A stretch of 64,000 nucleotides of DNA from Thiomonas sp. X19 (GTDB lineage: Bacteria > Pseudomonadota > Gammaproteobacteria > Burkholderiales > Burkholderiaceae_C). Below are positions 46,580 to 62,225 of the stretch, piece by piece. The stretch's first letter is position 1, and the number at the start of each line of letters is the position of its first letter. The DNA is taken from positions 3,630,179-3,694,178 of the forward strand of contig NZ_LT605203.1 in assembly GCF_900089495.1 (NCBI RefSeq). The letters run 5' to 3'. The notes below the pieces were generated by a model that saw only the letters and a list, made by a program, of their open reading frames with translations, ran no database searches and was not told where the DNA came from. Both the position numbers and the translations under genes were made by a program.

Positions 46580-46589
46580 GGATTCAACG

Positions 46590-47633
46590 ATGGCAACATT
46601 TGTAGAGAGAAAAAATGGCTGGCAGGCGAAAGTGAGGCGACGCGGGATGCCTTCGATCAGCCGAACCTTTGACCTCAAGGCCGATGCCGAGGCATGGGCC
46701 CGCGAGATTGAACGCGAGGCACAGCGCGGCAATGTGGGCGCTTTGCGTGACGACGCTGGGCGCACGACGCTGGAGCATGTGGCATCGGTGTACGTTGCCG
46801 GCCCTGTGCAGTTGCTCGCTTCGCGGGCTGACGTGACGCGCTACATGCATGCTGCGCGCGCCCGGTTCGGGTCGTTCTTCCTTTCTGCGATCCGCGGTGT
46901 TGATGTGGCCGCCTGGCGCGATGAACTGCTCAAAGGCGGCCTGTCGTCTCAGTCGGTCATCCATCACCTGAATGCGCTGTCGGGCCTGTTCTCGTTCATC
47001 GAGAAGGAATTGAGCATCGACCTGCCGTCTGGCAACCCGGTTGCCAAAGTGCGCAAGCCCGCGATGCCGAAATCAAGGGAACGGCGCTTGCGGCCCGGTG
47101 AACTCGATGCGCTGATGCGCGAGGCTCGCACGCCTGGCCTGCCGCAAATCATCATCCTGGCCGTCGAGACCAGCATGCGCCTGGGCGAGTTGCTGGGGCT
47201 GGAGTGGAAGCGCGTCGATCTCGTCAAGCGCACTGCGCACCTGGTGGACACCAAGAATCGTGAGAGCCGCACGGTGGCGCTTTCCAGCGCCGCCAGCGTC
47301 GCACTGAAGAGTCTGCATGCCCTGCCCCGCCGCATCGATGGCCGGGTGTTTGGCTGGGCGGCGTCAGACAGCTTTGAGAAGGCCTGGGTGCGCTGCAAGG
47401 CGCGAGCGCTGGCCGCCTACCTTGCCGACTGCGCCGCATCCAACACCAAGCCCGATCCATCCTTTCTGGCCGATCTGCGCTTCCATGATCTGCGCCACGA
47501 GGCCACGTCCCGGCTGTTCGAGAGGGGCCTGGGCGTCATGGAGGTCGCCAGCATGACGGGGCACAAGTCGCTTGCCATGCTCAAGCGGTACACCCATGTC
47601 GAGGCCGAGAAGCTGGCGGCGAAGTTGGGATAG
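46590..47633 (+). CDS. Tyrosine integrase of the tRNA-Arg element
   Basis: A 347-residue tyrosine recombinase. The N-terminal part MATFVERKNGWQAKVRRRGM and the SAM-like core-binding domain (LEHVASVYVAGPVQLLASRA) precede the catalytic domain. Catalytic residues are Arg in ETSMRLGELLGLEWKRVD, the HDLRHEATSRLFERG box, His in MTGHKSLAMLKRYTHVEA and the tyrosine of the same segment. ATG 46590 is 95 bp inside attL. It is the only element gene on the plus strand, and the tandem boxes in its promoter suggest that binding of integrase could also regulate it. Confidence 0.93.
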   Translation: MATFVERKNGWQAKVRRRGMPSISRTFDLKADAEAWAREIEREAQRGNVGALRDDAGRTTLEHVASVYVAGPVQLLASRADVTRYMHAARARFGSFFLSAIRGVDVAAWRDELLKGGLSSQSVIHHLNALSGLFSFIEKELSIDLPSGNPVAKVRKPAMPKSRERRLRPGELDALMREARTPGLPQIIILAVETSMRLGELLGLEWKRVDLVKRTAHLVDTKNRESRTVALSSAASVALKSLHALPRRIDGRVFGWAASDSFEKAWVRCKARALAAYLADCAASNTKPDPSFLADLRFHDLRHEATSRLFERGLGVMEVASMTGHKSLAMLKRYTHVEAEKLAAKLG

Positions 47634-48418: not shown

Positions 48419-48468
48419 GTGCCTGCACGGGCCGGCACATGGATTCAGCGGCATGCGAAACGCGACGC
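48419..48468 (-). promoter_or_regulatory. Shared leader element, copy 1
   Basis: On the minus strand GCGTTTCGCATGCCGCTGAA, then TCCATGTGCC and a hairpin GTGCCGGCC/...GGCAC. It fills the gap between the stop of the gene at 48469 and the ribosome binding site of the gene ending at 47978. Confidence 0.65.
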
Positions 48469-48978
48469 TCAGCCGATGGGCACGACACGGGCGGGCTGGC
48501 CCCAGCCGTATTGCGAACCCAGCAGCTCGACGCGCTGGCCGGCATGGATGGGCACGTCGGCGGCTTGCGTGACGGCGATGGTCTGGCCGTTATCCAGTCG
48601 CACCGTGATTTGCAGGCCTGGTTGCTGGTAGGCCTTGCCTGCCGCCAGGTCGCCAGCCGCTGCGCCGCCCAGCGCGCCGATGACGGCTCCGACCGCAGAG
48701 CCGGTGCCTTGCCCTACCCGGCTGCCCGCGAACCCGCCAGCGACCGCGCCGAGGGTGCTGCCGGCGCCGGTGACGCCCTGGCCCGCGCGGATCGTGACTT
48801 GCTGGACGTAGAGGACCGTGCCGAGCTGGACCTGCTGGACCTGCTGGGCCTGGCTGGCGCTGTAGTTGTAGGCGCTGGACTGGTACTGACCGCCCAGGCC
48901 CGGGGGCACGCCGGCGCAGCCGCCCAGGGCCAGCGCGGCGGCCAGGGCAGTGATGGTGAGGGGTTTGATGTGTTGCAT
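48469..48978 (-). CDS. Glycine-zipper outer-membrane lipoprotein (SlyB-like)
   Basis: A 169-residue lipoprotein: signal MQHIKPLTITALAAALALGG with the cysteine directly after (lipobox LGGC). A glycine-zipper two-helix region follows (GAGSTLGAVAGGFAGSRVGQ, GSAVGAVIGALGGAAAGDLA), then a C-terminal beta-rich part (ITVRLDNGQTIAVTQAADV). This is the SlyB/17-kDa antigen architecture. Chromosomal relatives help outer-membrane stability; here it is cargo of an integrated element. It is preceded by leader element copy 2. Confidence 0.82.
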   Translation of the reverse strand: MQHIKPLTITALAAALALGGCAGVPPGLGGQYQSSAYNYSASQAQQVQQVQLGTVLYVQQVTIRAGQGVTGAGSTLGAVAGGFAGSRVGQGTGSAVGAVIGALGGAAAGDLAAGKAYQQPGLQITVRLDNGQTIAVTQAADVPIHAGQRVELLGSQYGWGQPARVVPIG

Positions 48979-49000
48979 GGTGAGGCTCCTGATGGTTGCG

Positions 49001-49052
49001 GTGCGCCGGCTTGTGCTGGCACATGGATTCAGCGACATGCGAAACGCGGCGC
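49001..49052 (-). promoter_or_regulatory. Shared leader element, copy 2
   Basis: On the minus strand GCGTTTCGCATGTCGCTGAA, TCCATGTGCC and hairpin GTGCCAGC.../GCCGGCGCAC. It ends 22 bp before the ATG of the lipoprotein gene. Confidence 0.65.
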
Positions 49053-49054
49053 GG

Positions 49055-49270
49055 TCAGTGCAGCGGGATGCCGAGAAAGGCCGCAGCGGCGAGCACAAAT
49101 GGGGCGGCGATGGTCGTGCAGGTCAGGGCGATGAATGCCAGGGCGAACGCGGCCATGAACGTGTTGAAGATCGAGGCGAAAAACGCGGCCCGGCGCATGG
49201 CGCGGCGCTTGATGTCCCACGCGCGGGCCTCGGCGAGAAATTGGGCGGGGGTGATGGTTTTGTAGGTCAT
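49055..49270 (-). CDS. Small membrane protein, 71 residues
   Basis: MTYKTITPAQFLAEARAWDI, a basic KRRAMRRAAF stretch, then two hydrophobic segments (ASIFNTFMAAFALAFIAL and TIAAPFVLAAAAFLGIPL). Unknown family. AGGAG lies seven to eight bases before the ATG. Its leader contains a GC-rich hairpin (TGCCCGGC/GCCGGGCA) but only a weak match to the shared element. Confidence 0.55.
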   Translation of the reverse strand: MTYKTITPAQFLAEARAWDIKRRAMRRAAFFASIFNTFMAAFALAFIALTCTTIAAPFVLAAAAFLGIPLH

Positions 49271-49356
49271 GGCTTGCTCCTGGTGGTCGTGGTGCCCGGC
49301 ACGGCGGCCGGGCATCGCCGGGGTTCGATGCAACGCCCGGCCTTCTCGTCCTTCAA

Positions 49357-49716
49357 TCAGACTTCCAACACCCGCAGCTTCTTGGCTTCGTAGAAATCGG
49401 CGTCCTCGATTTCAGGCATTGCCGCCGAGCAGATCACCAGTTCGCCGTGCAGATGCTCTTTTGCGGCCGCAATCGCCCAGCCGGGGATGCCTGCGGCCTC
49501 CGCAATCTTGTCGTACTCGTCTTGCATCTCATCAATGCTTTCCGGATCGAAATCATCACTGATTTCGACGCCCTCAAATGATGAGAAGTACGCAAGCTTT
49601 TCCGTTTCCGGGTCGCTCGGGTCGAGAGACACAATCGCCCGCCCGACGCAACGCGGGTCGTATCCAAGTTGGCAGATGGATTCAGGAAGGTTGACTTGTT
49701 GTTGAGCGGCCATCAT
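49357..49716 (-). CDS. Acidic cytoplasmic protein of unknown function
   Basis: A 119-residue acidic protein without signal peptide or membrane segment: VNLPESICQLGYDPRCVGRA, SFEGVEISDDFDPESIDEMQ and IPGWAIAAAKEHLHGELVIC. Two ATG codons stand together at the start (49716, 49713); AAGGAG fits the first. I recognise no domain. Leader element copy 3 is upstream. Confidence 0.55.
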   Translation of the reverse strand: MMAAQQQVNLPESICQLGYDPRCVGRAIVSLDPSDPETEKLAYFSSFEGVEISDDFDPESIDEMQDEYDKIAEAAGIPGWAIAAAKEHLHGELVICSAAMPEIEDADFYEAKKLRVLEV

Positions 49717-49745
49717 TTCAAAACTCCTTGAGTTGGTTTGCCGCT

Positions 49746-49800
49746 GTGCCGCGCGGCCCGGTCTTACATGCATTCAGCACCAGGCGAAATCGCCTGGCTT
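49746..49800 (-). promoter_or_regulatory. Shared leader element, copy 3
   Basis: On the minus strand a hairpin CCAGGCGA-TT-TCGCCTGG carries the TTTCGC core, then TGCTGAATGCATG and a GC-rich tail GGGCCGCGCGGCAC. It ends 30 bp before the ATG. Confidence 0.6.
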
Positions 49801-49807
49801 TTAGGGG

Positions 49808-50272
49808 TCAGTCCTCACCCGGCAGCATCACCGTGATGACCGGCTCGCCTGCGTCGCCAGGGCCGACCTGCAGCTTCAATGTCGTCAGGCGTGGCCGCAC
49901 GCCCCGGCCTTCGCGGGGAATGCGCAGGACTTGAAACAAGATCGGGTCGCGGCCATCGTGCCCGTGACGCAGTCCTGCGCGGATCGCGCGCGATGCCATC
50001 CACACGACATCCCAAAGCCTGCCGGATTCGGACTGCCAGCACGCCCCGCCACCCTTGCGCTTGTCGTCGGCATCCGTCCAGGCGCAGGCGTCGCTCCATG
50101 TGGCGCTGGTGAGGGCCACAGGCCACACGATGCCAGCCTCGCGCGCGGTGGTGCTGACATCGATCAGCATGCCGTCCTCGATGGCCTGGGCGCGGGTGTA
50201 GGAGTAGATCGGCTTGCCGAACAGGTCGGCCAGGGCGGCGGGGCTGGTGGCGTGCGTGGTTTCGGTGCTCAT
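49808..50272 (-). CDS. DUF6573-like protein
   Basis: A 154-residue protein with IYSYTRAQAIEDGMLIDVST, TAREAGIVWPVALTSATWSD and RLWDVVWMASRAIRAG. This pattern is common in proteins of plasmids and integrative elements (DUF6573, named from memory). Their function is unknown. No membrane segment. Preceded at 25 bp by the stop of the gene at 50298. Confidence 0.7.
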   Translation of the reverse strand: MSTETTHATSPAALADLFGKPIYSYTRAQAIEDGMLIDVSTTAREAGIVWPVALTSATWSDACAWTDADDKRKGGGACWQSESGRLWDVVWMASRAIRAGLRHGHDGRDPILFQVLRIPREGRGVRPRLTTLKLQVGPGDAGEPVITVMLPGED

Positions 50273-50297
50273 GGTTTGCTCCGGGTGGTGGTTGAAA

Positions 50298-50579
50298 TCA
50301 GTTCAAGACGGTCTTGAAGCCGAGGTCGCAAAGCTGCTCAAAACGCTTGGCTGCGTTGCCCTTTGGGTCTTGGGTGATGGTGAACAGAATCTCGGTCTTG
50401 GTCACGGTCACGCCCTTGGCTGCGGCCTGCTTTTGCATGAATTCAAGGACTGAATTGATGACGAAGGACGGCAGGTTTGGGGTTGGTTTGGCCTTGCCAC
50501 CTGCCTGGGTGGAGGCTCGGTCGTGAGTGGCCGTGGAATCGGCTTGCTGGGCGGGGGTGTTGAGGATCGCTGGGTTCAT
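50298..50579 (-). CDS. Small cytoplasmic element protein, 93 residues
   Basis: Low-complexity Thr/Ala/Lys N-terminus, then PNLPSFVINSVLEFMQKQAA, KGVTVTKTEILFTITQDPKG and NAAKRFEQLCDLGFKTVLN. Composition suggests a small helical protein. Not recognised. AAGGAGC lies before the ATG. Confidence 0.5.
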   Translation of the reverse strand: MNPAILNTPAQQADSTATHDRASTQAGGKAKPTPNLPSFVINSVLEFMQKQAAAKGVTVTKTEILFTITQDPKGNAAKRFEQLCDLGFKTVLN

Positions 50580-51142
50580 GGCGGTGCTCCTTGTGTGGGG
50601 GTGGTTTCTGCCAGGTATGGAGGGCTCATTGGTCGACCTTTCAAGCCGGTGCCGCGAAGCGGCATGAGGGGTTGCGGAAGGCATGACAGGCCGCCAGGCC
50701 GCGCAGCGCCCGCTCGCGGGCTGGCGTGACTGACGCCATCCCCGAAAGGCGCAGAAAGTCGCGCCCTCCATGCATGGCAGTCACCCCCATGGGCACGCGA
50801 ACCCAACAATCCGGCCCGCCCAGCAGGCTGATGCAGCGGCCTGGCGGCGCGGCTTCATCGCGCCGTATCCCTGCCACGGCTTGCCGTGGCACTGGCTGGG
50901 CAGTTGTGGGTTGTGATAGCGATGCGGCCCCGCAGGGCTGAGACCCGCAGGGGCTCGGGGCGCAGCCGCAGCAGCGCGGGCCGCAGGCATCACCCTGGTT
51001 GCGATGGAGACCTCCGACCGCAGCAGCAAGGCCCACAGCAGGCACCACAGCGGCCCGCAGCACCTTCGCCGCACCGACCTCATGCGCGCCGCCCCGAGCC
51101 CGCTGAAGGCATGCCCCGGCGCAGCCGGGGCATGGTCTAGGC
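50580..51142. other. GC-rich non-coding stretch with several hairpins
   Basis: No convincing gene in 563 bp. Open frames lack ribosome binding sites and protein-like composition. It holds hairpins such as CCACGG-CTTG-CCGTGG (50871-50890 region) and, just past the adhesin stop, ATGCCCCGGC/GCCGGGGCAT (51111-51133), which could end the adhesin transcript although no T run follows. Confidence 0.55.
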
Positions 51143-52627
51143 TCACCAGCCGATGCTCGCCCCGACCTTGCCCACTGCCGCACCGCTGCCGCCGTTGAAG
51201 CCGATGCCCACGGTCCAGGAGACGGGGTACTGGTGGTAAGCAGTGCGGCGGCTGAACGCGATGCCCACGGCGTTCTGCCCGCCGTAGCTGCCAAGGCCAG
51301 CCGACAGGCTGTAGCCATCCGGGCCGTAGATCGGGCTGATGTCCAGCGCTGCGGTCATGGCGATGCCTTGGGCGGCGTAGGTGTCGGCTTGGCCCAGCAG
51401 GCCCGCCGTGGCTTGCTGCAACTGGCCCAGGTTCACCGCATCGGTCGCTTGCGTGCCGGGCGCCACGTTGGTGATTTGGCGTTGCTGTCCAGCGCTGCCC
51501 ACGCTCACCGAGTTGGCGCGGTTGGCGACACTGCCTGCACCAAGCGCGACGGAGTTGGTGCCCAGCGCCTGGGCTTGGTAGCCGAGTGCAACCGAGTTGG
51601 CCCCTGCGGCGTCGGCCTGGAAGCCAAGGGCCGTTGCGGGGTCGGCATTGGCCTGCGCGCCCTGGCCGATGGCGATGGCGCCCGTGGTATTGGTGTCGGC
51701 GGGGTTGGTCGGGGCCGTGATGGTTGCGCCCTGGCCGATGGCAAGGCTGCCCGCATAGCCTGCCGACGCGTCATTGCCTTGCGCGACGGCGCCGGCGGCC
51801 GCGGCGGTGTTCGCGCCGCAGACGATGCCGCCCTGCCCGCTGTACTTGCACAGGCCCGATGCCGTGGCCTGGTTGATGAGGTTTTGCAGCGTCGTGATTT
51901 GCTGGTTGGTGTAGCTGTTGGCCGTGGTGACCGCGCCGGCGGTCTGGGTGTTGGTGTAGTTGTAGCCAGCCAGGGCTGCGGCGTCGAGCTGGCCGAGGTT
52001 GACCGCATCGGTGGCCGCCTGACCTGGGGCCAGGTTGATGATGCGGCGCTGCTGCGATGTGGTGCCGACACTGACAACACCAGTGAGGCCAGAATCATTG
52101 CTGCCAGCGCCGAGCGAAACGCTGTCAATTCCTGTGCTCGTGGCTTGATAGCCAAGCGCCACACCAGCAGTGCCCGCGCCGCCTGGCGCGATGGGCACGC
52201 TGGCGCCCGCACCAATGGCGACGCCGCCGACACTCGCCGTCGCGTTTTGGCCGACCGCGACTGACGATCCCTGGAGCCCTTGCGCCCCGGCGCCGACCGC
52301 CACCGACCCGATGCCCTGGCCGGTGGCCGCAGCGCCAAACGCGGTGCTGCTCTGGTTTGCCAGGCTGCCCGCACCGACGGCTGTCGCGGCACCTTGGTTT
52401 GCCTGGGACTGCTGGCCGATGGCGGTGTTGTTGGTCTGGATTGAGGCAAGGGCGCCTGCGCCAGACGCCAGGTTGCCGCTCGTGTCCTGGGTTGTGACAT
52501 TCCCTGCGCCGCTCACAGTGCCGCCGGCTGTATCGGCATGGGCGGCAGTGCCCAGCGCGGCGGCCAGGGCCAGGGTGAGGGCGAGGGTCAGCGGGGCGAG
52601 GGTGAAGCTGCGTTGTTTGGTTTGCAT
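51143..52627 (-). CDS. YadA-type trimeric autotransporter adhesin
   Basis: A 494-residue surface protein. Signal peptide MQTKQRSFTLAPLTLALTLA ending AAHA. The passenger holds YadA head repeats of the SVAVGAGAQGLQGSSVAVGQ kind and two neck/stalk insertion motifs (QQRRIINLAPGQAATDAVNL; the second with AGQQRQITNVAPGTQATDAV). The C-terminus is a four-strand YadA anchor (DISPIYGPDGYSLSAGLGSY, VSWTVGIGFNGGSGAAVGKV) ending in tryptophan. It would assemble as a trimer in the outer membrane and mediate attachment. Short compared with pathogen adhesins. The longest cargo gene of the element. Confidence 0.88.
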   Translation of the reverse strand: MQTKQRSFTLAPLTLALTLALAAALGTAAHADTAGGTVSGAGNVTTQDTSGNLASGAGALASIQTNNTAIGQQSQANQGAATAVGAGSLANQSSTAFGAAATGQGIGSVAVGAGAQGLQGSSVAVGQNATASVGGVAIGAGASVPIAPGGAGTAGVALGYQATSTGIDSVSLGAGSNDSGLTGVVSVGTTSQQRRIINLAPGQAATDAVNLGQLDAAALAGYNYTNTQTAGAVTTANSYTNQQITTLQNLINQATASGLCKYSGQGGIVCGANTAAAAGAVAQGNDASAGYAGSLAIGQGATITAPTNPADTNTTGAIAIGQGAQANADPATALGFQADAAGANSVALGYQAQALGTNSVALGAGSVANRANSVSVGSAGQQRQITNVAPGTQATDAVNLGQLQQATAGLLGQADTYAAQGIAMTAALDISPIYGPDGYSLSAGLGSYGGQNAVGIAFSRRTAYHQYPVSWTVGIGFNGGSGAAVGKVGASIGW

Positions 52628-52651
52628 GACGGTTCCTTTTTGGGTGTTGAG

Positions 52652-52702
52652 GTGCGCCGGCCTGGGCCGGCACATGGATTCAGATGGAAGCGAAATGCGC
52701 GT
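52652..52702 (-). promoter_or_regulatory. Shared leader element, copy 4
   Basis: On the minus strand GCATTTCGCTTCCATCTGAA, TCCATGTGCCGGCC and GGCCGGCGCAC. It lies between the stop of the barrel gene (52706) and the ribosome binding site of the adhesin. Confidence 0.65.
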
Positions 52703-52705
52703 CGA

Positions 52706-53227
52706 TCAGGCCAGCGGCACCACGAGCTGCAGGCCGATGAAGCCCGCGCTGCGCCCTGCGTTCGGCACGGCCACAAGGTTGATGCCATACCCCCGCTGCG
52801 AGCGGACTTCCACCAGCGCGGCGGCCATCAAGGGCCGGTCGGGGGCTTCACTGCGGGTGTAGCCGCTGATGACGCCTGCAAGCCCGCCAGCGGCCATGCT
52901 GAAGCCCGCAGGCAGGGCGATGTGCAGCGGGGTGTAGGTGGCTGTGGCGTAGACCGACGTGCGGCTGTAGCTGTTTTTGTAGAAGCCTGCCGCGAACCCC
53001 GAGTTCGAGGTGCAGTGGTACTCGAAGCCAAGCCCTGGGTTGTCCTGGTTCAGGCTGTCGCGCGCCCACTGCCTGGTGTGATAGCTGGTGGTGCTGATGT
53101 CCAGCGCCCAGCGCGACGGGGTGGACGCGACTGCGGCGGGTGTGGCCGGCAGCGTGTCGGCATGGGCGGTGCCCAGCGCGGCGACGAGCGCCAGGGCGAT
53201 GATGGTGAGGGCGTGTTTGGTTTGCAT
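52706..53227 (-). CDS. Predicted outer-membrane beta-barrel protein
   Basis: A 173-residue exported protein: signal MQTKHALTIIALALVAALGT ending AHA, then alternating beta strands (WALDISTTSYHTRQW, NPGLGFEYHCTSNSGFAAGF, YSRTSVYATATYTPL, GYGINLVAVPN, GFIGLQLVVPL). The NPGLGFEY/FYKNSYSR pattern resembles small PagP-like barrels carried by phages and plasmids. Enzymatic activity cannot be claimed. It is next to the adhesin gene and shares its leader type. Confidence 0.62.
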   Translation of the reverse strand: MQTKHALTIIALALVAALGTAHADTLPATPAAVASTPSRWALDISTTSYHTRQWARDSLNQDNPGLGFEYHCTSNSGFAAGFYKNSYSRTSVYATATYTPLHIALPAGFSMAAGGLAGVISGYTRSEAPDRPLMAAALVEVRSQRGYGINLVAVPNAGRSAGFIGLQLVVPLA

Positions 53228-53244
53228 GGCGTGGTCCTTTCGGT

Positions 53245-53298
53245 GGAGCCTGGGAATCCAGGCTCTCAGGACCATTCGGGGCCATGCGAAATGCGACA
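53245..53298 (-). promoter_or_regulatory. Shared leader element, copy 5 (diverged)
   Basis: On the minus strand GCATTTCGCATGGCCCCGAA, then a hairpin GAGCCTGG-ATT-CCCAGGCTC in place of the GCCGGC one. The core is kept while the hairpin sequence is entirely different, so the hairpin appears to be kept as a structure. Confidence 0.55.
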
Positions 53299-53307
53299 GC
53301 AGCGGTG

Positions 53308-53330
53308 AAAAAGCCCGCACGCGGCGGGCT
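53308..53330 (-). terminator. Rho-independent terminator
   Basis: On the minus strand AGCCCGC-CGCGT-GCGGGCT is followed by TTTTC. It ends the transcript containing the genes at 53419-54574. Confidence 0.75.
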
Positions 53331-53418
53331 GGGTGGTGGGCAGGGACCGCCCCCAAACCGTCAGGCGAACCCTTTGCGAAACGGTTTGGAATAGGGTTTG
53401 CGCAAGTGCTTGATCGGG

Positions 53419-53718
53419 CTACGACTTGTGCAGTCGCTGGCGCAGGTCGGCCAGGCCAAGCCAGAACAGAGCGCCGAGCACGGCGCCAGCCCAGGCCCAC
53501 CTTGGCCCAAGAACCTTGTAGGCCGCAAGGGCGAACACTGCCGCGAAGACCAGACTGCCTCGGATCAGCGTCGGTGCAGCGCGCTTGAGCGCAAGCCAGG
53601 CCAGCAGGCCCGCCAGCGCCCCGCCCAAGGCCCAGGCAGGGCCGGCGAGCTCGCCGGTGATCAGGAACCCAGCAGCGGCGGCGAGCACTTCGAGTTTGAG
53701 AAGACGGTGGCGCATCAT
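53419..53718 (-). CDS. Small membrane protein, 99 residues
   Basis: Hydrophobic almost throughout: LEVLAAAAGFLITGELAGPA, LGGALAGLLAWLALKRA, LVFAAVFALAAYKVLG and WAWAGAVLGALFWLGLADL, suggesting three or four membrane helices. Family unknown. GGAG lies seven bases before ATG 53718, and the gene starts 10 bp after the stop of the gene at 53729, so they share a transcript. Confidence 0.55.
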   Translation of the reverse strand: MMRHRLLKLEVLAAAAGFLITGELAGPAWALGGALAGLLAWLALKRAAPTLIRGSLVFAAVFALAAYKVLGPRWAWAGAVLGALFWLGLADLRQRLHKS

Positions 53719-53728
53719 GGCCGTCTCC

Positions 53729-54574
53729 TTACCGCCGGGCCGCCGGCCACATGGGCACCATGGCCGTGGGCAAGCTCGCGGCCTGGGGCTTGATGTAGAA
53801 GTCAAGCACGGGCGCTGCGCCGCCGTCGGTCGTCGCTTTCGTGTCGAGGATGGCCTCGATGGTGTGCAGCCCAGCCGCGAGGTTGACGGTCGATGAGGCG
53901 GTCACAGGCGGCGCGTTCGGCGTCCAGATGGCGTTGTATTTGCGCGCCAATGAGACCTGCGTGTCGGCCCGGTCGTCGAGGGTCAAGCGGACCTCGCCGG
54001 AGGCTTTGCCACCCAGCACAGCGGTGAGCAGGTAGGAGCCGGAGGTTGGAACATCGAAGTCAAAGTTGTAGGCAAGACGCGCCGGTTGGCCTGGGGTGAT
54101 GAACGGGGCAATCGAGCTCGGGATGGCGCCGGAAAAACTGGCGCTCGGCGAGGACTGGATGATGGTGCCGATCAGCTGAGCCGGCAGGCTCGCGGGGTCT
54201 TGACCCTGCACGGCTTGGACGGACTCCACACGCAATTGCCACGCCCCGGACTCAATGACCTGGTTGGGGCTCAAGGTCAGCGCGGGGAGCTCGGCTTGCA
54301 TCAGGGATGCGGGCGAAGAAGCTGGGACGGCTGCAACCTTGGCGGGGGCCGTGGTGGATGAAGCGACCGGCTGCTTCGGCGGCGAGGCCGCCGCCAGCGG
54401 CGCGGGCGCTGCGGGATGTGGGGCGCTCTGGCTCGGCACGATGATGGCGGCCAAGACGAAGACGACGAGGAAGGCGAGCGCGAGGTAAATGATGAAGGGC
54501 TCGACGCCGACGCGCTGGGCGAAGGCGTCGAGCCGAGCGCGTGCAGCGCTGATGTGGTTGTTGATGTCTGACAT
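53729..54574 (-). CDS. Single-pass inner-membrane protein with periplasmic domain
   Basis: A 281-residue protein: about 25 cytoplasmic residues, one membrane helix (FIIYLALAFLVVFVLAAIIV), an Ala/Pro/Ser linker, and a beta-rich periplasmic domain (GAWQLRVESVQAVQGQDPAS, FDVPTSGSYLLTAVLGGKAS, VNLAAGLHTIEAILDTKAT). The last part looks like a carbohydrate-binding or PA14-like sandwich. No family is recognised with confidence. Leader element copy 6 is upstream. Confidence 0.6.
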   Translation of the reverse strand: MSDINNHISAARARLDAFAQRVGVEPFIIYLALAFLVVFVLAAIIVPSQSAPHPAAPAPLAAASPPKQPVASSTTAPAKVAAVPASSPASLMQAELPALTLSPNQVIESGAWQLRVESVQAVQGQDPASLPAQLIGTIIQSSPSASFSGAIPSSIAPFITPGQPARLAYNFDFDVPTSGSYLLTAVLGGKASGEVRLTLDDRADTQVSLARKYNAIWTPNAPPVTASSTVNLAAGLHTIEAILDTKATTDGGAAPVLDFYIKPQAASLPTAMVPMWPAARR

Positions 54575-54598
54575 GATTGCTCCTGGTGGTTGAAGGTG

Positions 54599-54650
54599 AA
54601 TGCGGGGTCCGCCCGCACATCCATTCAGCGGCATGCGAAATGCGCGGCGA
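54599..54650 (-). promoter_or_regulatory. Shared leader element, copy 6
   Basis: On the minus strand GCATTTCGCATGCCGCTGAA, TGGATGTGCGGGCGGACCCC and GCATTC, with a GCGGG/CCCGC hairpin. It ends 25 bp before the ATG at 54574, and upstream of it there is no gene for about 1 kb. This suggests that the element belongs to the downstream gene, not to the end of an upstream one. Confidence 0.65.
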
Positions 54651-54727
54651 GATGGTTGGTGCGAGATCAGGCGGTGGGCAACCGAGCAACCTTGGCTTGC
54701 ACGTCGCGTTGTCCACGGCCTGGGTCT

Positions 54728-54805
54728 GGGCCGCAGGCCCTTGCCTTTGGCGAGCATCCCGCCCGCAGGGCGTTGCCTATTGGCAAGCATCGGGCCGTCA
54801 GGCCC
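54728..54805. repeat. Array of five adjacent short hairpins
   Basis: GGGCC-GCA-GGCCC, TTGCC-TTT-GGCGA, CGCCC-GCA-GGGCG, TTGCC-TAT-TGGCAA and GGGCC-GTCA-GGCCC follow each other with at most a GCATC between them. The two TTGCC hairpins are each followed by GCATC, giving a direct repeat of about 32 bp. Confidence 0.7.
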
Positions 54806-55263
54806 TCTTCGGGCGCGGCCCGTCTGCCCTGCATGTGACGGGATGCGAGCAAGCGCCGCTGGCAGTGGCGTGTGGGTGGCGCACGGTTTGCCACAGCGAC
54901 GCGATGCGGGCGTGTGGTCGAGGCTTGGCTTGGTGCCGGGCCGCAGTGCCCGGCTTGCCTGGTGCCGGTCGTCCAGACCGGCTTGCTTCGGGGGGGCCGC
55001 GTGAAGGCGAGTGGACACAGCGGGGCTTGGCAAGCGACAGCGCGGCCGAGTCCCGATGTGACCGAGCCAGGCGACCCCAAGGGCGCCGGTTCACGTGGGG
55101 GCAGAGCCCGCACGGCACAAGCGAGGGTCGTCCGAAGGACGTTCCCTCAGCGCAGGTCGGGCCGCCGAACCCGCCAGGGTGAGGTGGAGCCGAGCCACGG
55201 GACGCCCCCTAGGGCGGACTGGGGCCGAGGGCAGGTTCACCGCCCGAAGCCGAGCTCCCCCTG

Positions 55264-55356
55264 GGGAGCGAGTGCGCGCGAAGCGCGGCCCGCCGATCTG
55301 CCCATGATTTAGGCAGACAGAGGAATAAGGGCCGCGCTTCGCGCGCACTCGCTCCC
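55264..55356. repeat. Large inverted repeat, candidate origin of transfer
   Basis: Perfect 28-bp arms at 55264-55291 and 55329-55356 (left arm begins GGGAGCGAGTGCGCGC, ends GCGCGGCCC) separated by 37 bp. The spacer holds a second hairpin TCTGCC...GGCAGA. It lies about 300 bp downstream of the mobilisation operon. Confidence 0.75.
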
Positions 55357-55608
55357 TGGAGCGGGGTCGTGCCGTGCCCGCAGTGGCGGTTTCAGAGCGG
55401 GGGCGAGGCCGTCCAGGCCGAGATTGACCCGGTGCCCCCCAGGGCACGCGCGCAGCGCGAGGGGCAATTTACCCCGCTCTGAAGCCGTGCCTTCATGCGC
55501 TTTCTCGCGCCGCTCGCTTGCGCCGCCCTTCTTGCTCCACGGCAAACCGCAAGACAAGAGGCGCGAGGGCTGTAAACAGGCGTATATACGGCTGTATGCG
55601 CCGGGCAG

Positions 55609-55633
55609 CAAAAAGCCCGCATGAAGCGGGCTT
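55609..55633 (-). terminator. Rho-independent terminator of the mobilisation operon
   Basis: On the minus strand AAGCCCGC-TTCAT-GCGGGCTT runs into TTTGC. It lies 21 bp past the stop of the small protein at 55654. Confidence 0.8.
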
Positions 55634-55653
55634 GGGGCAGACGGGAAGGAAGG

Positions 55654-55893
55654 CTACGAGGCGGCCTGCTGGCGGTCGTGCGCAGCACGTTCCGCCCCCG
55701 CATTGGCAAGCTCGGCGCGGGCTGATTTGACCGCTGCGGCCAGGGCCTTCACGCACACATCGCTGGCGTCGAACACGAACCCCGCGCGGTCCGCATCGGC
55801 CTGCAGAGCCTGCAACTGTTGATGCAGTTCCGTGGGCAAACGCAGTGACATGGCGGCGGTTTTGGTCGGGGCTTTGGGCTTCAGGATGCTCAT
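55654..55893 (-). CDS. Small ribbon-helix-helix-like protein, possible relaxosome accessory
   Basis: A 79-residue protein: basic N-terminus (MSILKPKAPTKTAA), then MSLRLPTELHQQLQALQADA, the beta-strand and first helix of a ribbon-helix-helix fold, and FDASDVCVKALAAAVKSARA. Such proteins often bind oriT beside a relaxase or repress a mobilisation operon. It directly follows the MobC-like gene (22 bp). The role is inferred from fold and place. Confidence 0.6.
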   Translation of the reverse strand: MSILKPKAPTKTAAMSLRLPTELHQQLQALQADADRAGFVFDASDVCVKALAAAVKSARAELANAGAERAAHDRQQAAS

Positions 55894-55915
55894 GATTTCT
55901 CCTTCGGATGGCGGG

Positions 55916-56659
55916 TTAAGAAAGCGATTCTGTAAACGTTTTGTACACAGTGAAGGCGAGATTCGCGTGATGTTTGGCGGGGTCGATCTTGGTGTCGATG
56001 CCCGCAATCTGCACGCGCCTGACGCCAAGGATCAGGCGCTGCACGCGGTCGCGTGTGACCTCGTCGGGCGAGCTCCAGATCACGCGGCCCCACTTGCCTT
56101 GATGCATGGCCGTCAGGTGGCCGGCCAGCACGTTGCGGTAGGCTTTCGGGCTCTTGACGCTGCGCTCGATCTCCACGGCAACACGATGGCCGGTGGCCGT
56201 CAGGAGCACGGCGTCGGGCTTCTTGACCCCGGCTTTCGTTGCCGCCAGACGGTCGCCTGAAATCCACTGCTTGACCTTGCCGCTGTGTACAGCTTGTATA
56301 CGCGCACGCTGCACAGCCAGCGTGTGTTTGAGTGTCACGAGGCTGAATCGGGCGGGCTCGAAATGACGCTCGATCGGGTCTTCGCTCGCCGGGTCGAACG
56401 CCATGGACTGGCCGCGCGACGTGATGCCCACAACCCAGAACGTCGCCAGGCCATCGCCCAGCGCAATCGGGTGCCGCTTGACCAGCCCGGCGCGTTCCAA
56501 GGTGGAGACAGTGGCGCGCGAAGCCCGCGCTTCCACGCCCAAAAGTTCGGCGATCACCTGCGGCGATGTGTACAACTCATCGCGCAAAAAACGGAGAATC
56601 GCGGTGCGCTTTTCTTCTGCGCGCGCGGCGCGGATTTTGGGGTCGGTGATGATGGGCAT
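55916..56659 (-). CDS. MobC-like / replication-relaxation family protein
   Basis: A 247-residue protein with an N-terminal winged helix (KRTAILRFLRDELYTSPQVI, ASRATVSTLERAGLVKRHPI) and a C-terminal nuclease-like part (KPDAVLLTATGHRVAVEIER, SVKSPKAYRNVLAGHL) with a D...E-x-E pattern. This is the replication-relaxation family (Replic_Relax), which includes MobC of CloDF13, a relaxase of the MOBC class. In CloDF13 it works with the coupling protein MobB, and here too a coupling-type ATPase gene lies directly upstream. A TGTACA-type palindrome overlaps the ribosome binding site. Confidence 0.75.
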   Translation of the reverse strand: MPIITDPKIRAARAEEKRTAILRFLRDELYTSPQVIAELLGVEARASRATVSTLERAGLVKRHPIALGDGLATFWVVGITSRGQSMAFDPASEDPIERHFEPARFSLVTLKHTLAVQRARIQAVHSGKVKQWISGDRLAATKAGVKKPDAVLLTATGHRVAVEIERSVKSPKAYRNVLAGHLTAMHQGKWGRVIWSSPDEVTRDRVQRLILGVRRVQIAGIDTKIDPAKHHANLAFTVYKTFTESLS

Positions 56660-56660
56660 G

Positions 56661-56677
56661 TGTACACCTTGTATACG
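56661..56677. promoter_or_regulatory. TGTACAC-type repeat at the MobC-like gene start
   Basis: TGTACACCTTGTATACG overlaps the ribosome binding site of the MobC-like gene. The same 17 bases with one change occur inside that gene at 56286-56302, and a looser copy at 55931-55948. Possible binding site of the winged-helix protein itself. Confidence 0.4.
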
Positions 56678-56705
56678 TTGCCCCCGGCCAGCGCCGGGGT
56701 TTGGG

Positions 56706-58274
56706 TCACTTCAAAAGGTCGTCGAGGCTGTCGGCGCCGACCTGTTCGGCCTGGGCTTCGGGTTCCTCTTGATGTGATTCAGCATCAAGCGAAACCGTCG
56801 GCGCGGCGGGCTTCTCGACGCGCAACGGCTCCGGCGTCTGGCCGGCCTGGAGCCAGCGGGTCGAGAGAAAGAAGGCCGTCCCCAGCCCGAACACCACGCC
56901 CACTGATGCCTGGTCGCCCACGGGCTTTGGCAGGTGGCTGAACACATGTGGCGGCATGAATTCGCGGCTGGCATGCGTCCACGATGTGTTGGTGCTCCCG
57001 CCGTTGTCGTTCTGGCTGCTGCTCATGGTCTGCACGTCGGCGCGCTGTGCGCCGGCCAGCCGCGAAAGCTCCAAGGCCGTCGCTGAATCGAGCATCTTGT
57101 AGGCGAACTTGATGCCCGAGTTGCCCCAGATCGCGCCCCGCACAGCCTTGGGGCTCAAGCCAGGGCAATCGTCGAGATCGCCGAGGCTCTGGTGCGCAAA
57201 CATCAGGTGCGAATTGCGGTCACGGATGGTGCCTGCGGCGCGTAGGGCAGCGGGCGACAGCAGATATTTCAGTTCGTCAAGAAACAAGCAAACCGGCTTT
57301 GACTTGTCGCGCCGGTCTTCCAGCACCTGCAACAAGCGCTGCAAAAGCAGCTTTTGAGCGGCGGCGACCTCAAGTTTGGTCGTGCTGCCCATGACATACA
57401 AAACGACCCCGCCATCTTCTTCCAGCAGCGCCGCCAGGTCGATGCCCTGCTCGCGGGTCGCGAACGCCTTCACCCGCCCGAGCTGCCTGAGCTCGCGCCA
57501 GAGATTTTCTTTTTCAGTCACTAATTCATCGGCGCCAGCCGCCGTGATGATGTCTTGCATGCTCCGGGCCGGGTCGGCGGCCACGGCTTCGGCAATCCAA
57601 GACGTTGCTTCTCGATCCCCTCCCCGGTAAAAATCGACCCCGGCATCGCCCGTTTTGCCGAGCTCCAGGGCCACCTGCAGCAGCTCTTCCACCTGGTCGG
57701 GCCGGCATGAATGAAACGGGTTGATCTGGGGGAAGCTCGCCGTGTGCCGCAGGTCAATGACCAAGACCGGGAAGCCATGCTTTTCGCCCATTCGCGCCAG
57801 CACGCCGGGTAGCATTTCGTCGGGTTTTGGGTCGAACACCACGACCGCTTCGCCAGATGCAGCCAATTGGCTCAACAGCACGCCGGCCAGGCTCGACTTG
57901 CCGACGCCACTTTCTCCCAAGATTTCCAAATGGTTTTTGTCGAGCGTCTGGCGTGGCAAATAGATGGGCTTGCGTTTGCCATCCAGGCCAATGAAGACCC
58001 CCTTTTTCAAGTTGATGTATTGCTCGGGGTCGAAGCCCAGGGCCAGGCCTTTCAAATAGGCCGCATCTTCTTCCACGTCCCGGATGCCTGACCGCACATC
58101 TCCTGGCGCCGAGGTCATGACCCTCCACCAAAAAATGGCGGCCAGGGCCGCGCCGGCCATCATGACCGCGATGCCCAGCCGCCCATGATTGAAAAGAGAA
58201 AGCAGAATGTCTATCGCGAAACTCGCGCCGGCAATAAGCCCGAAGACTTTGAGCGCGCGGAAAAATTTAAGCAT
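56706..58274 (-). CDS. TraD/TraG-type coupling ATPase (MobB-like)
   Basis: A 522-residue ATPase with two N-terminal membrane helices (LIAGASFAIDILLSLF, LGIAVMMAGAALAAIFWW). Walker A is ILGESGVGKSSLAGVLLSQL, then AVVVFDPKPDEMLPGVLARM, and Walker B PVCLFLDELKYLLSPAAL. SHLMFAHQSLGDLDDCPG corresponds to the conserved Q of HerA/FtsK-type motors. This is a type IV coupling protein that would bring DNA with its relaxase to a secretion channel. GGAG lies seven bases before ATG 58274. It is upstream of the MobC-like gene, as mobB is of mobC in CloDF13. Confidence 0.82.
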   Translation of the reverse strand: MLKFFRALKVFGLIAGASFAIDILLSLFNHGRLGIAVMMAGAALAAIFWWRVMTSAPGDVRSGIRDVEEDAAYLKGLALGFDPEQYINLKKGVFIGLDGKRKPIYLPRQTLDKNHLEILGESGVGKSSLAGVLLSQLAASGEAVVVFDPKPDEMLPGVLARMGEKHGFPVLVIDLRHTASFPQINPFHSCRPDQVEELLQVALELGKTGDAGVDFYRGGDREATSWIAEAVAADPARSMQDIITAAGADELVTEKENLWRELRQLGRVKAFATREQGIDLAALLEEDGGVVLYVMGSTTKLEVAAAQKLLLQRLLQVLEDRRDKSKPVCLFLDELKYLLSPAALRAAGTIRDRNSHLMFAHQSLGDLDDCPGLSPKAVRGAIWGNSGIKFAYKMLDSATALELSRLAGAQRADVQTMSSSQNDNGGSTNTSWTHASREFMPPHVFSHLPKPVGDQASVGVVFGLGTAFFLSTRWLQAGQTPEPLRVEKPAAPTVSLDAESHQEEPEAQAEQVGADSLDDLLK

Positions 58275-58623
58275 TTTCAACTCCTTGTTTCTTGATGCTG
58301 AAAAGCGAGGCTGGAATCAGCAGACCAAGAAATCCGCCAGCCGCCGCCGCCTCCAGCGTCTTCGCCCAACCAAATCCGCCAGGCTGCATGCTGGTGTAAT
58401 ACAGCGCAGCCACGGCAAGCGCGCCATGGGTATGCTGGATAAACCAGTGACCCACGCCCAATGCATTCAATGCAGAGCCGAGCGTGAATGAAACCGCTGC
58501 GGCGAGCAATTGCTCGTGCGCGAGATAACCCGCGCTCGCGAGTAATGCGCCGAAAATCATGCAAAACAAGGTGGCGCGAATGCGAAAATGCGCCACCCTG
58601 ATCTTGTCCATTTTGTCGAGCAT
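58267..58623 (-). CDS. Small membrane protein beside the coupling ATPase
   Basis: A 118-residue protein with three or four hydrophobic segments (ATLFCMIFGALLASAGYLAH, LLAAAVSFTLGSALNALG, GGFLGLLIPASLFSI). Its stop overlaps the coupling ATPase start by eight bases, so the two are translationally coupled. It may assist the membrane domain of the ATPase. The family is not recognised. Confidence 0.6.
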   Translation of the reverse strand: MLDKMDKIRVAHFRIRATLFCMIFGALLASAGYLAHEQLLAAAVSFTLGSALNALGVGHWFIQHTHGALAVAALYYTSMQPGGFGWAKTLEAAAAGGFLGLLIPASLFSIKKQGVENA

Positions 58624-58625
58624 TT

Positions 58626-58850
58626 TTATGACTCCTGAATTGAAGTTGGAGGCTGATAGCCAAGCTCGGGCAGATGCTGACGGCGTGAGTAGTCCTGCAG
58701 CAGGAAGTCGCCGATTTGTTTGGATGCCTCGGCCAGGTGCGGCGGCAGGACGTGCGCGGCGCGATACCCACACGCGCCCGGCCTTGGGTAATGCTCCACG
58801 GTCGCAAGGGCCAGGCCCTCGCGCGTGATTTCAAGCTCGATGTACAGCAT
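58626..58850 (-). CDS. Small protein, 74 residues, unknown
   Basis: MLYIELEITREGLALATVEH, HVLPPHLAEASKQIGDFLLQ and RRQHLPELGYQPP. Cytoplasmic by composition. AGGAG lies six bases before the ATG and the stop is 2 bp before the next gene. No domain recognised; it is kept because of its tight operon spacing and ribosome binding site. Confidence 0.5.
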   Translation of the reverse strand: MLYIELEITREGLALATVEHYPRPGACGYRAAHVLPPHLAEASKQIGDFLLQDYSRRQHLPELGYQPPTSIQES

Positions 58851-58852
58851 GA

Positions 58853-58999
58853 TTACTCCTGGTGCGCGAAAATCACCGCCTGCGCGTGGCGCAATTGCGC
58901 GAGCGTTGGCGTGGGCGACAGCAGATAGGTCATGAATACGGCTTGCACAATCTGCATGATCAGCAGCATGGGCAGCCAAAAGCGCAGGTTCTTTTCCAT
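58853..58999 (-). CDS. Very small single-pass membrane protein, 48 residues
   Basis: MEKNLRFWLPMLLIMQIVQA, VFMTYLLSPTPT and a short polar tail. One membrane helix. GGAGA lies seven bases before ATG 58999 and the stop is 2 bp before the next start. The operon position supports it being real. Confidence 0.5.
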   Translation of the reverse strand: MEKNLRFWLPMLLIMQIVQAVFMTYLLSPTPTLAQLRHAQAVIFAHQE

Positions 59000-59015
59000 G
59001 TTCGATTCTCCGGGT

Positions 59016-59468
59016 TTAATGTTGCGTAGGGTTGGTCGGTTCGGGATTTTGCGCGGGCGCAACGCGGCGGCGGTCTTGGATTTCACCGAGCATGACATGG
59101 AATAAGGCGCGCTCCTTGGCCGTCAGCTTTTCACGAACAAATGAACGATCGGCATCCGACCAGAGCTCGATTTCATAATCACCCGATGCAGCGTGGGTGA
59201 TTTGAAAATGGCGCGGAGTGCGCGGTGATGGCTTGCTGGCCTCGGTTTTGGCGATTTGCGCGGCGTGGGCGATGATGACGCGCTGCACAGCGGCGGGCGA
59301 TGTCGCAAAATCACGATTGAACGTCGAGATAATGCCAACAAGCATGTCAAAATCGCGACCCAAGTCCGCAAGCAGGCCAGCGACCGCCTGGCGGTCGCCG
59401 TGCGCACTCTGCAAAAATCGGGAATAAATAGCCTGGGCGATTTGGAAGGTTTTATTAGGGGTTTGCAT
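59016..59468 (-). CDS. Cytoplasmic element protein of unknown function
   Basis: A 150-residue protein, largely helical in the first 75 residues (KTFQIAQAIYSRFLQSAHGD, FDMLVGIISTFNRDFATSPA) and more mixed after that (FQITHAASGDYEIELWSDAD, LTAKERALFHVMLGEIQDRR). No family recognised. AGGAG lies before ATG 59468 and leader element copy 7 is upstream. Confidence 0.55.
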   Translation of the reverse strand: MQTPNKTFQIAQAIYSRFLQSAHGDRQAVAGLLADLGRDFDMLVGIISTFNRDFATSPAAVQRVIIAHAAQIAKTEASKPSPRTPRHFQITHAASGDYEIELWSDADRSFVREKLTAKERALFHVMLGEIQDRRRVAPAQNPEPTNPTQH

Positions 59469-59490
59469 GGTGGTGCTCCTGGTTGGGGGT

Positions 59491-59542
59491 GTGACGCATG
59501 GAAGTTGGGCGCCTACCTACATTCAGGGGCAGGCGAAATGAA
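59491..59542 (-). promoter_or_regulatory. Shared leader element, copy 7
   Basis: On the minus strand CATTTCGCCTGCCCCTGAAT, then GTAGGTAGGCGCCCAAC. It retains the TTTCGC-CTGAAT core, but the following hairpin is weak. This copy is at the head of the mobilisation part, showing that the element is not limited to envelope cargo. Confidence 0.5.
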
Positions 59543-59544
59543 AG

Positions 59545-59571: not shown

Positions 59572-60564
59572 TCAGGACAAAACCCAGTCGTCCCAGCCCT
59601 TGCACGGCGCAGGCGGTGCCATGCGGACGACCTTGGCACCCGGCGCGCGCAGGGCGGCGACCAGGCGGTCAGCCTGGTGATGGCCTGGGGTGTCGTTGTC
59701 CTGCGCCAGGGCGGCGGTCTCGATGCCGAGCTCGTCCACCAGCCAGGCCAGCATCTGCTGCTGGTGTTGGCCCGGGTCGCCGCCGGTGCTCACGACCCAG
59801 GCAGGTTTTGAGGCCTGGGCGAGCCGGGCGTGCAGCGCCAGGCCTTTGATGGCGCTTTCTGTCACAACCAGCACGCGGCTTTCAGTTACCGGCGGCAAAA
59901 TCCAAAGGCCCTTTTTTCCCCTGCTGCCCTTTTTGCTGCGCGCGACATCGGTTTCACGAGGTCCGCGCAGCTCCGCCCACGTCACCGCTTGGTCTGGTTG
60001 AACATGAGGGAAAGCCAGATGCACAGCCCTGGGGTAGGGCGGATGGCCTGGCACATGCCCAGCCACGGCGCGCATGGCCAGCGCGTGCTTGATGGTGGAT
60101 AGGGGAATGCCGCGCTGGCCATGCAGATAGTCGATTGCCCACGCTGGCGCTTCGCACAGCGCCAGCGGCTTGGGAGGCTCCACGGTTGCGGCGGCCGCCT
60201 GGGGTGCTGGCAGCGGCATGGAAGCCCGCGCAGGGGCCGCATGACCGCCTGCCAGAGCTTGGCGCAAGGCACGGCGAGCATGGCCGAGATTCGCGCCTTG
60301 GTTGATATGCTGGTGCAGCGCGAGCCAGTCTCCACCACCGCCAGCGCCGCGCTTGGTTGGGTGCCAGATCCAGCCGGTGCGCCCCCTGCAGACGGTGATC
60401 AGTTCATCTGATGAGGTGCGCCAATAGCTGTAGCCAGCGCCGCCATGCTGGCGCTGCGCGGCTTGGTCATGGGTCAGGCCAAGAATTTCGGCCACGGCCT
60501 GGGGTGGCAGTTGGCGCAGGGCGGTAAGTTCGGCGCGGTCGTGGGTGATGGTGGTGGTTTTCAT
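59572..60564 (-). CDS. Toprim-domain primase-like protein
   Basis: A 330-residue protein. The N-terminal region carries CRGRTGWIWHPTKRGAGGGG, then LALHQHINQGANLGHARRAL. The middle has AIDYLHGQRGIPLSTIKHAL (DUF3991-like). The C-terminal Toprim domain is VLVVTESAIKGLALHARLAQ, WVVSTGGDPGQHQQQ and IETAALAQDNDTPGHHQADR with the DxD-like metal site. Such proteins prime or assist replication of plasmids and integrative elements. It lies downstream of the primase-helicase with a repeat-rich 156-bp gap between. Confidence 0.78.
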   Translation of the reverse strand: MKTTTITHDRAELTALRQLPPQAVAEILGLTHDQAAQRQHGGAGYSYWRTSSDELITVCRGRTGWIWHPTKRGAGGGGDWLALHQHINQGANLGHARRALRQALAGGHAAPARASMPLPAPQAAAATVEPPKPLALCEAPAWAIDYLHGQRGIPLSTIKHALAMRAVAGHVPGHPPYPRAVHLAFPHVQPDQAVTWAELRGPRETDVARSKKGSRGKKGLWILPPVTESRVLVVTESAIKGLALHARLAQASKPAWVVSTGGDPGQHQQQMLAWLVDELGIETAALAQDNDTPGHHQADRLVAALRAPGAKVVRMAPPAPCKGWDDWVLS

Positions 60565-60580
60565 AATTTGCAAATTCCTT

Positions 60581-60598
60581 CCCGTCTGCCCGTCTTTT
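60581..60598. repeat. 18-bp inverted repeat flanking the Toprim gene, right arm
   Basis: CCCGTCTGCCCGTCTTTT, the complement of 59545-59562. It lies 17 bp upstream of the Toprim start codon, in its leader. Confidence 0.7.
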
Positions 60599-60612
60599 TC
60601 TGTCCCTTGGTT

Positions 60613-62223: not shown

Positions 62224-62225
62224 CG

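Follow-up and report, generated by a model that had tools for sequence, protein, structure and literature searches.

A repeated two-box core ahead of genes in Thiomonas islands: a candidate island-specific promoter with several dialects

AcaCD sites lie upstream of transfer genes of an IncC plasmid, and such motifs have been predicted ahead of genes of SGI1 and MGIVmi1 (passages of PMC4207636). Promoters of ICEclc share a motif and depend on BisDC, which is encoded together with alpA (passages of PMC9286271), and late promoters of phage T4 have a -10-like element and no conserved -35 element, their specificity factor gp55 carrying a clamp-binding tail (passages of PMC7892883). In the present study, a short element repeated upstream of genes was analyzed in a 64,000-nucleotide stretch of the genome of Thiomonas sp. 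X19 (the window; C3:3630179-3694178 of the 4.67-Mb genome). A first-pass annotation of this stretch had described seven copies of a leader element just upstream of ribosome-binding sites (RBS) and had proposed translational control or RNA processing, unique to one mobile element. All seven copies were present, each ahead of the start codon assigned to it (Table 1), in an integrated island referred to below as E1. An island-wide regulon motif is of an already known kind; its placement, the hairpin behind it and its variants, here called dialects, differ in the present case, and the element is interpreted as a probable promoter.

Two-box core and its dialects

The constant part of the element was an 18-nt bipartite core, (A/G)TTTCGC-N7-TGAAT, usually with a GC hairpin close behind, followed by an RBS and ATG. 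In a logo of 40 copies, core positions were nearly or fully invariant and nothing upstream was conserved, the constancy of the spacing being partly by construction, as copies had been gathered using that spacing. The conserved leader sequence reported in the first-pass annotation was real but narrower than described, its 'GCATG' and later 'ATG' not being invariant in the logo. A search of the window with a longer pattern and up to three mismatches gave seven matches, against 0.01 expected; six were previously described copies and one was a chance-like plus-strand match, while copy 5 escaped detection owing to its CCGAAT. A sequence-only profile of 43 copies, the seven themselves among them, retrieved exactly those seven from the window at E<=1.

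In the complete genome, the exact core TTTCGC-N7-TGAAT occurred 21 times, always on the minus strand, which is the gene strand, and in four clusters (E1 to E4, Table 1); the reversed pattern gave no match. The integrases of E1, E2 and E3 were related. That E4 is an island is a guess; only a homologue of a barrel-protein gene was found there, and E4 entered the gene-homology and alignment comparisons but not the ten-region comparison described below. In three further regions of the genome, homologous genes were present and the exact TGAAT core was absent. Inspection of the sequences upstream of these genes by eye yielded other repeated motifs, ATTTCC-N7-CCTAT at 3778k and ATTTCC-N8-GTAnC at 3530k and 3090k. 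Another genome, G335, contained five copies of TTTCGC-N7-[TC]G(A/C)AT, of which one was an exact core and four had [TC]GCAT as box 2; three of the five stood ahead of homologues of the gene at 54574 and of the YadA-like and barrel genes of E1.

The designs found in these related islands (TTTCGC-N7-[TC]GCAT, ATTTCC-N7-CCTAT and ATTTCC-N8-GTAnC) shared a common build with the TGAAT core, consisting of a box 1, (A/G)TTTC.., and a box 2 that together spanned 17 or 18 nt, with constant spacing within each dialect. Box 2 was uniform inside an island and different between island groups, the change being island-wide, and dialect copies stood ahead of homologous genes. Since the variants were sought by eye, their detection is a discovery and not a blind test, for which genome-wide searches provided the check: 20 of the 27 genome-wide matches to ATTTCC-N8-GTAnC fell in the two islands (reversed control, 4), as did 9 of 11 matches to ATTTCC-N7-CCTAT in one island (reversed control, 0). 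Across ten fetched island regions, each dialect was confined to its own island group and to the gene strand, apart from one reverse CCTAT match and one CCTAT match in the flank of the 3530k island. An island-wide change of box 2 ahead of homologous genes is the trace expected of a changed recognition factor, and suggests that each kind of island may switch on its own genes via a private promoter class. If so, one genome would hold several related islands with distinct promoter codes before homologous genes. These would constitute natural promoter/factor pairs for studying how promoter specificities split, how cross-activation is avoided and how transfer genes are switched as a block, and the core would also make this family of islands easy to search for.

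The core was not unique to this mobile element, as had initially been proposed, but recurred in other islands, other genomes and another genus. Of 28 genomes of the genus, including that of strain X19, 12 contained the exact core, with additional clusters in G301 (six on one contig) and G322 (seven on one contig of 17 kb that lacks the early region of the island). Both lie outside a sample of 399 genomes of the family, and the genomes designated G are partly drafts. Within the family sample, G244, a member of another genus, carried five copies, four of them exact and lying within 9 kb and one with a single mismatch; among the 13 genomes of that genus, an exact-core cluster was found in G244 only. 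A marker protein of the islands, encoded by the gene at 54574, was detected in 3 of the 399 genomes (G000, G244 and G335), all three of which have core-bearing islands. Copies occur outside recent duplications, in another genus and ahead of homologous genes.

Matches to the 18-mer were found in 211 of the 399 family genomes (that of X19 included), mostly one or two each, which looks like background. In four family genomes with 4-6 matches that were listed in full, those of G244 were clustered and those of the other three scattered; among the matches listed, further genomes showed such counts (e.g., G040, G374, G165 and G043). In 84,980 genome contigs, the exact long pattern had 28 matches, one per stretch and distributed over many phyla, where about 30 would be expected by chance according to our own estimate; these matches were not individually inspected, and since the scan used a strict TGAAT pattern, relatives in other dialects may exist elsewhere. 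Viral contigs gave two long-pattern matches, likewise without individual inspection, and no relatives of two island proteins, while a plasmid collection contained no match for the two proteins or for 12 kb of island DNA. A literature search by title and abstract opening retrieved no paper describing the element, and the words 'promoter' and 'leader' have no occurrences in the main text of a paper on Thiomonas islands (PMC4589449).

Placement of the core and the hairpin behind it

Positions of terminators and start codons were used to interpret the core. In 8 of 89 copies, a stem with a T-run lay wholly upstream of the core within 60 nt, compared with 21 of 4000 positions drawn at random from the same regions; the 89-copy set includes copies inside genes, one-mismatch rows due to chance and matches to a looser GTA pattern. 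In these eight, the distance from the start of the T-run to the core was 4 to 35 nt, and no more than 20 nt in five of them. When core bases were included, the count was 10 of 89 against 17 of 4000, two of the ten being doubtful because they used the core or a different stem. At copy 5, the T-run of a terminator-like hairpin began 20 nt upstream of the core, and in G335 a terminator T-run continued into the core's own TTT. Transcripts arriving from upstream would stop at such a terminator; unless it leaks or is bypassed, expression of the following gene requires a start located at the core or behind it. The shortest plausible distance between box 2 and a start codon was 22-23 nt, in several copies, with four distances of 7-16 nt taken as false RBS-start pairs; at L065:12257, the RBS began 9 nt after box 2. 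If the core drives the gene, a distance of 22-23 nt puts the RNA start no more than about 10 nt from box 2, a position typical of a core promoter and not of an upstream operator. The position of the eighth core of E1 inside a gene, 135 nt before the next start, also suits a promoter better than a ribosome-side element.

With modest confidence, these sequence features indicate that the core is a promoter whose transcript starts near the hairpin, and not a translational leader. Each copy would then comprise the core promoter of an island transcription unit and the first nucleotides of its mRNA, with the core at about -25 to -7 and the RNA start near the base of the hairpin. A factor travelling with the island would allow RNA polymerase to start at the core, and transfer, surface and cargo genes would be switched on together after an early operon encoding an AlpA-like regulator, replication proteins and OrfB, a protein of 150-200 amino acids encoded before the first exact core. 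In the TGAAT and GCAT islands this operon has no core, and OrfB precedes the first exact core in E1, E2, E3, G301, G244 and G335. Placed at the 5' end, the hairpin would serve to protect the mRNA or to hold its start open. Stem-loops at 5' ends stabilize mRNAs such as that of ompA, which resemble the present arrangement in having a hairpin near the presumed 5' end, but here the hairpin is repeated at many genes behind one motif. A search for TTGACA- and TATAAT-like hexamers 16-18 nt apart gave two pairs in the island region, compared with 1.9 in shuffled sequences, none of them at a copy, and no -35-like block was conserved upstream of the 40 TGAAT copies.

In activator-controlled regulons of the AcaCD, SetCD and BisDC type, the activator site lies near -40. 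Regulons of this type, known from IncC plasmids, SXT/R391 integrative and conjugative elements, SGI1-type islands and ICEclc, place one motif before many units of conjugative elements and dependent islands, and the present motif likewise precedes several transcription units in related mobile elements. The marking of units of helper and dependent elements by a single motif (passages of PMC4207636 and PMC9286271) would be consistent with a core that binds such an upstream activator and works together with an ordinary -10 box. This arrangement is nevertheless quite improbable, as the start codon can lie 22 nt after the core, the 40-copy logo showed no -10-like block after the core and none of the 23 E1 proteins gave a FlhC/FlhD-like match. 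Placement in the manner of a core promoter, the hairpin behind the core, the presence of several dialects in one genome and the absence of a detected FlhDC-like activator in E1 distinguish the present motif from these regulons.

The 35 nt behind the core folded better than their own shuffles in the 40 TGAAT copies (mean z -2.4; 22 of 40 below -2), with the same, weaker trend in the other dialects, where z was below -2 in 1 of 5 GCAT, 4 of 9 CCTAT and 14 of 29 GTA copies. These 40 copies, also used for the logo, were the 48 rows of a one-mismatch scan minus four in-gene copies and four judged to be due to chance. Later hairpin tests used 45 copies, after addition of those of G244 and removal of one chance-like G244 row, while alignment A1 comprised 43 of the 45, a near-duplicate of copy 1 and a copy from G301 having been removed. 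The best hairpin began 3-8 nt after TGAAT in 32 of 45 copies, in a search that always yields a hairpin and had no control of its own. In eight hairpins (seven distinct) chosen for a common register, 93.7% of cells paired, a figure raised by that choice, and four pairs changed on both sides; none of 500 shuffles reached the covariation score. For four barrel-gene hairpins, covariation was weaker (31 of 500 shuffles reached the score). Covariation supports the earlier suggestion that the core is kept while the hairpin sequence changes under selection on structure. A GC-rich hairpin at each of the seven copies was only partly borne out: z was -2.6 to -4.8 in copies 1, 2, 4 and 5, where the hairpin was clear, and -1.7 in copy 6, where it was moderate; in copies 3 and 7 (-0.4 and -0.8), it was weak or displaced.

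Hairpin covariation would also fit a structured 5' leader RNA, in which an RNA-binding protein of the island or the host controls translation or processing by attaching to core and hairpin within the mRNA. An RBS-like site and a start codon within 110 nt in 81 of 89 copies, a weak pairing signal of the spacer and the apparent placement of several copies immediately after the preceding stop codon point in the same direction. Cores that lie behind terminators, in one case running into the T-run, are difficult to reconcile with such a leader, as are the in-gene core and the few copies without an evident hairpin. Moreover, Rfam matched only tRNAs at gathering score in the whole window and, up to E=1 between 48300 and 59700, gave two sub-threshold matches, neither at a copy. 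A leader RNA is consequently regarded as rather unlikely, and translational control as the main function, proposed in the first-pass annotation, was not supported in view of the in-gene core, the hairpin-less copies, the 8 of 89 copies behind a terminator-like hairpin and the island-wide change of the core. Because the terminator cases are fewer and less independent than initially assumed, confidence in a promoter was lowered and that in a leader raised.

Several observations weigh against the promoter interpretation. Six of the eight terminator cases precede the barrel gene and may represent one inherited arrangement, and most copies have no upstream terminator. The core matches no sigma class known to us, the 50579/50272 unit of E1 has no core, and no repeated motif was recognized by eye at L068, another locus with a barrel homologue. 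In both GTAnC islands, a core-like copy (GTAGT or GTAGC) stands directly before the AlpA-like gene, unlike in the TGAAT islands. Pairing of the spacer with downstream sequence was slightly above expectation (reached in 0 of 500 comparisons with shuffled letters, 18 of 500 with other copies, and 25, 9 and 38 of 1000 within-group permutations), which a pure promoter would not predict. Among the 23 E1 proteins, Pfam recognized no sigma factor, polymerase or FlhC/FlhD-like activator at cut-off. OrfB was not found in the two GTAnC islands, its only match in the CCTAT island was a doubtful C-terminal one to a protein ending in QAGLF, and no candidate factor was present in every island.

Several alignment blocks between islands started or stopped at a core, and the sister island E2 has a different gene in place of the one behind copy 3, as would be expected if the core were a cassette boundary or recombination site for gene exchange between islands. 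This explanation is highly improbable: the order of shared genes was largely kept, alignment breaks also fell at gene ends, one core lies inside a gene, and the island-wide dialects would be left unexplained.

Candidate recognition factors

For the recognition factor implied by a promoter, OrfB is a putative candidate, a lead derived from sequence comparison; it may equally be a replication protein. Counterparts were found in all six TGAAT and GCAT islands with a fetched early region (E1, E2, E3, G301, G244 and G335), and OrfB adjoined the AlpA-like protein wherever the latter was found. The hidden Markov model used was seeded with hand-picked pieces of five members, so that matches to these were built in, and the E2 member was recognized by eye. 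Members were strongly divergent; most had a T-x-RR-x-QQ-like stretch, from which that of G244 departs, and a C-terminal Q-x-x-L was invariant in 23 of 23 aligned rows. The profile link between the OrfB groups of E1 and of E3/G335/E2 was weak and limited to a helix-turn-helix (HTH) stretch (probability 20%, E 0.0011). Among PHROGs families, phrog_836, 'late transcriptional activator', was the one matched by the largest number of OrfB rows (6 of 23), although weakly (best E 0.0034), and an OrfB relative, P0028, had an HTH_17 domain in front. Pfam gave no sigma family match for the 23 rows, a result that a strongly diverged factor could also give; OrfB had no match among solved structures, nor did its G335 member among phage records.

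In bacteria, the sliding clamp is bound through the peptide QLxLF. Among frames with 80 or more residues, a QLxLF-like pattern close to the C-terminus, chosen after OrfB had been seen, was present in 8 of 1316 forward ones, the OrfBs of all six islands among them, and in 0 of 1287 reverse ones. By analogy with T4 late transcription (gp55, gp33 and the sliding clamp gp45), OrfB might be a clamp-tethered promoter-specificity factor of conjugative and mobilizable islands that guides the RNA polymerase of the host to their two-box late promoters, and does so only while the island DNA is being replicated, with dialects keeping co-resident islands apart; we consider this a long shot. The lack of a conserved -35 element is common to both systems, and a specificity factor with a clamp-binding tail is a possible parallel to OrfB, whose tail is clamp-binding-like; unlike in T4, no sigma-like domain was recognized in OrfB and the core has two boxes.

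AlpA-like proteins, of which that of E1 gave, among other HTH families, a sub-threshold match to Sigma70_r4_2 (E 0.048), were set aside as the factor because E1, E2 and E3 share a dialect although their AlpA-like proteins look very different by eye. A search with the AlpA-like protein gave no match in G301 and G322 and an E of 0.015 in G244. In the CCTAT island, a core-like copy lies shortly upstream of the AlpA-like gene, unlike in the TGAAT islands; taken together, the copies near AlpA-like genes in this island and the two GTAnC islands are those at L165:331, L169:1948 and L065:12257. DUF6573 was set aside too: no G335 counterpart was found, and the G301 version looks truncated by eye.

The host island and its genes

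Island E1 spans 17.4 kb (46449-63829) and is inserted at tRNA-Arg, with an integrase at one end, the tRNA-Arg gene at the other and a perfect 47-bp repeat flanking it; island ends were mapped for E1 only. Apart from the integrase, all annotated E1 genes are on the minus strand. From the right end, they encode the AlpA-like HTH_17 protein, a small protein, OrfB, a D5-type helicase and a Toprim-like protein and, farther along, among others, a coupling ATPase, MobC-family, unknown (54574), barrel, YadA-like, DUF6573 and glycine-zipper proteins.

Table 1. Cores, island ends and selected genes in the window, with core clusters of the genome.
Feature	Position	Strand	Description
Copy 1 core	48443..48460	-	TTTCGCATGCCGCTGAAT; hairpin 48418-48439; gene start 48391
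Copy 2 core	49027..49044	-	Hairpin 49002-49023; gene start 48978 (glycine-zipper protein)
Copy 3 core	49772..49789	-	Weak displaced hairpin (about 49740-49757); gene start 49716
Copy 4 core	52678..52695	-	Hairpin 52653-52674; gene start 52627 (YadA-like)
Copy 5 core	53274..53291	-	CGAAT variant; own hairpin 53246-53265; gene start 53227 (barrel protein)
Copy 6 core	54623..54640	-	Hairpin 54600-54618; gene start 54574
Eighth core	56777..56794	-	Inside 3' end of coupling-protein gene; begins 135 nt before MobC gene start 56659
Copy 7 core	59521..59538	-	Weak hairpin; gene start 59468
Core clusters in the genome		-	E2 (3056-3068k) 6; E1 (window) 7; E3 (3719-3737k) 6; E4 (4332-4333k) 2
47-bp direct repeat	46449..46495	+	One attachment end
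Tyrosine integrase	46521..47633	+	Integrase of E1
MobC-family protein	55916..56659	-	Replication-relaxation protein, downstream of eighth core
TraD/TraG-like coupling ATPase	56706..58274	-	Downstream of copy 7
Toprim-like protein	59572..60708	-	Early operon
D5-type helicase/primase	60721..62229	-	Early operon
OrfB	62226..62687	-	153 aa; helix-turn-helix-like stretch; C-terminal QLCLF; core-less early operon; candidate recognition / late-activator factor
AlpA-like HTH_17 regulator	62890..63231	-	GRPRK tail; first gene of early operon
47-bp direct repeat	63783..63829	+	Within tRNA-Arg; other attachment end

Between two transcription units, about 1 kb of GC-rich DNA (54650-55640) contained no convincing gene by eye and could hold a transfer origin. 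The barrel protein (52706-53227), which PHROGs ties to PagP-like lipid A acylation (E 2.9e-12), was the sole forward-strand family present in all ten compared regions. Large TraI-like relaxases, one family by BLAST, were named in sister islands (L021 15830-19138, L066 4584-7292 and L163 7362-10148), where relaxase and coupling-protein labels were assigned by eye. E1 has a MobC-type protein in place of a TraI-like relaxase, yet the TGAAT dialect is common to E1 and E2.

E1 and E2 (window 49789 and L021:12752) aligned at 88% through the DUF6573 gene and the core to approximately 20 nt past the core start, after which different genes followed. The DUF6573 protein (49808-50272 and L021:12771-13235) was 100% identical between these two islands of the same genome, compared with 81-97% for neighbouring proteins, and in G301 the DUF6573 gene appeared, by eye, to be truncated and fused to a core. 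Genes behind copies 1, 2, 4 and 5 (48391, 48978, 52627 and 53227) had similar signal-peptide-like beginnings (by eye), and similarity at the DNA level between different copies reached from close to the core into those gene beginnings, as if each leader had been duplicated as one piece with its signal sequence. A likeness of ATGCCGCTGAA to the Neisseria uptake sequence was dropped, since most of the letters involved belong to the variable spacer. At 49772-49800, the core of copy 3 contributes to the 3' arm of a perfect hairpin, CCAGGCGA/TCGCCTGG, which is kept with a paired change, CCAAGCGA/TCGCTTGG, in the sister island (L021:12752).

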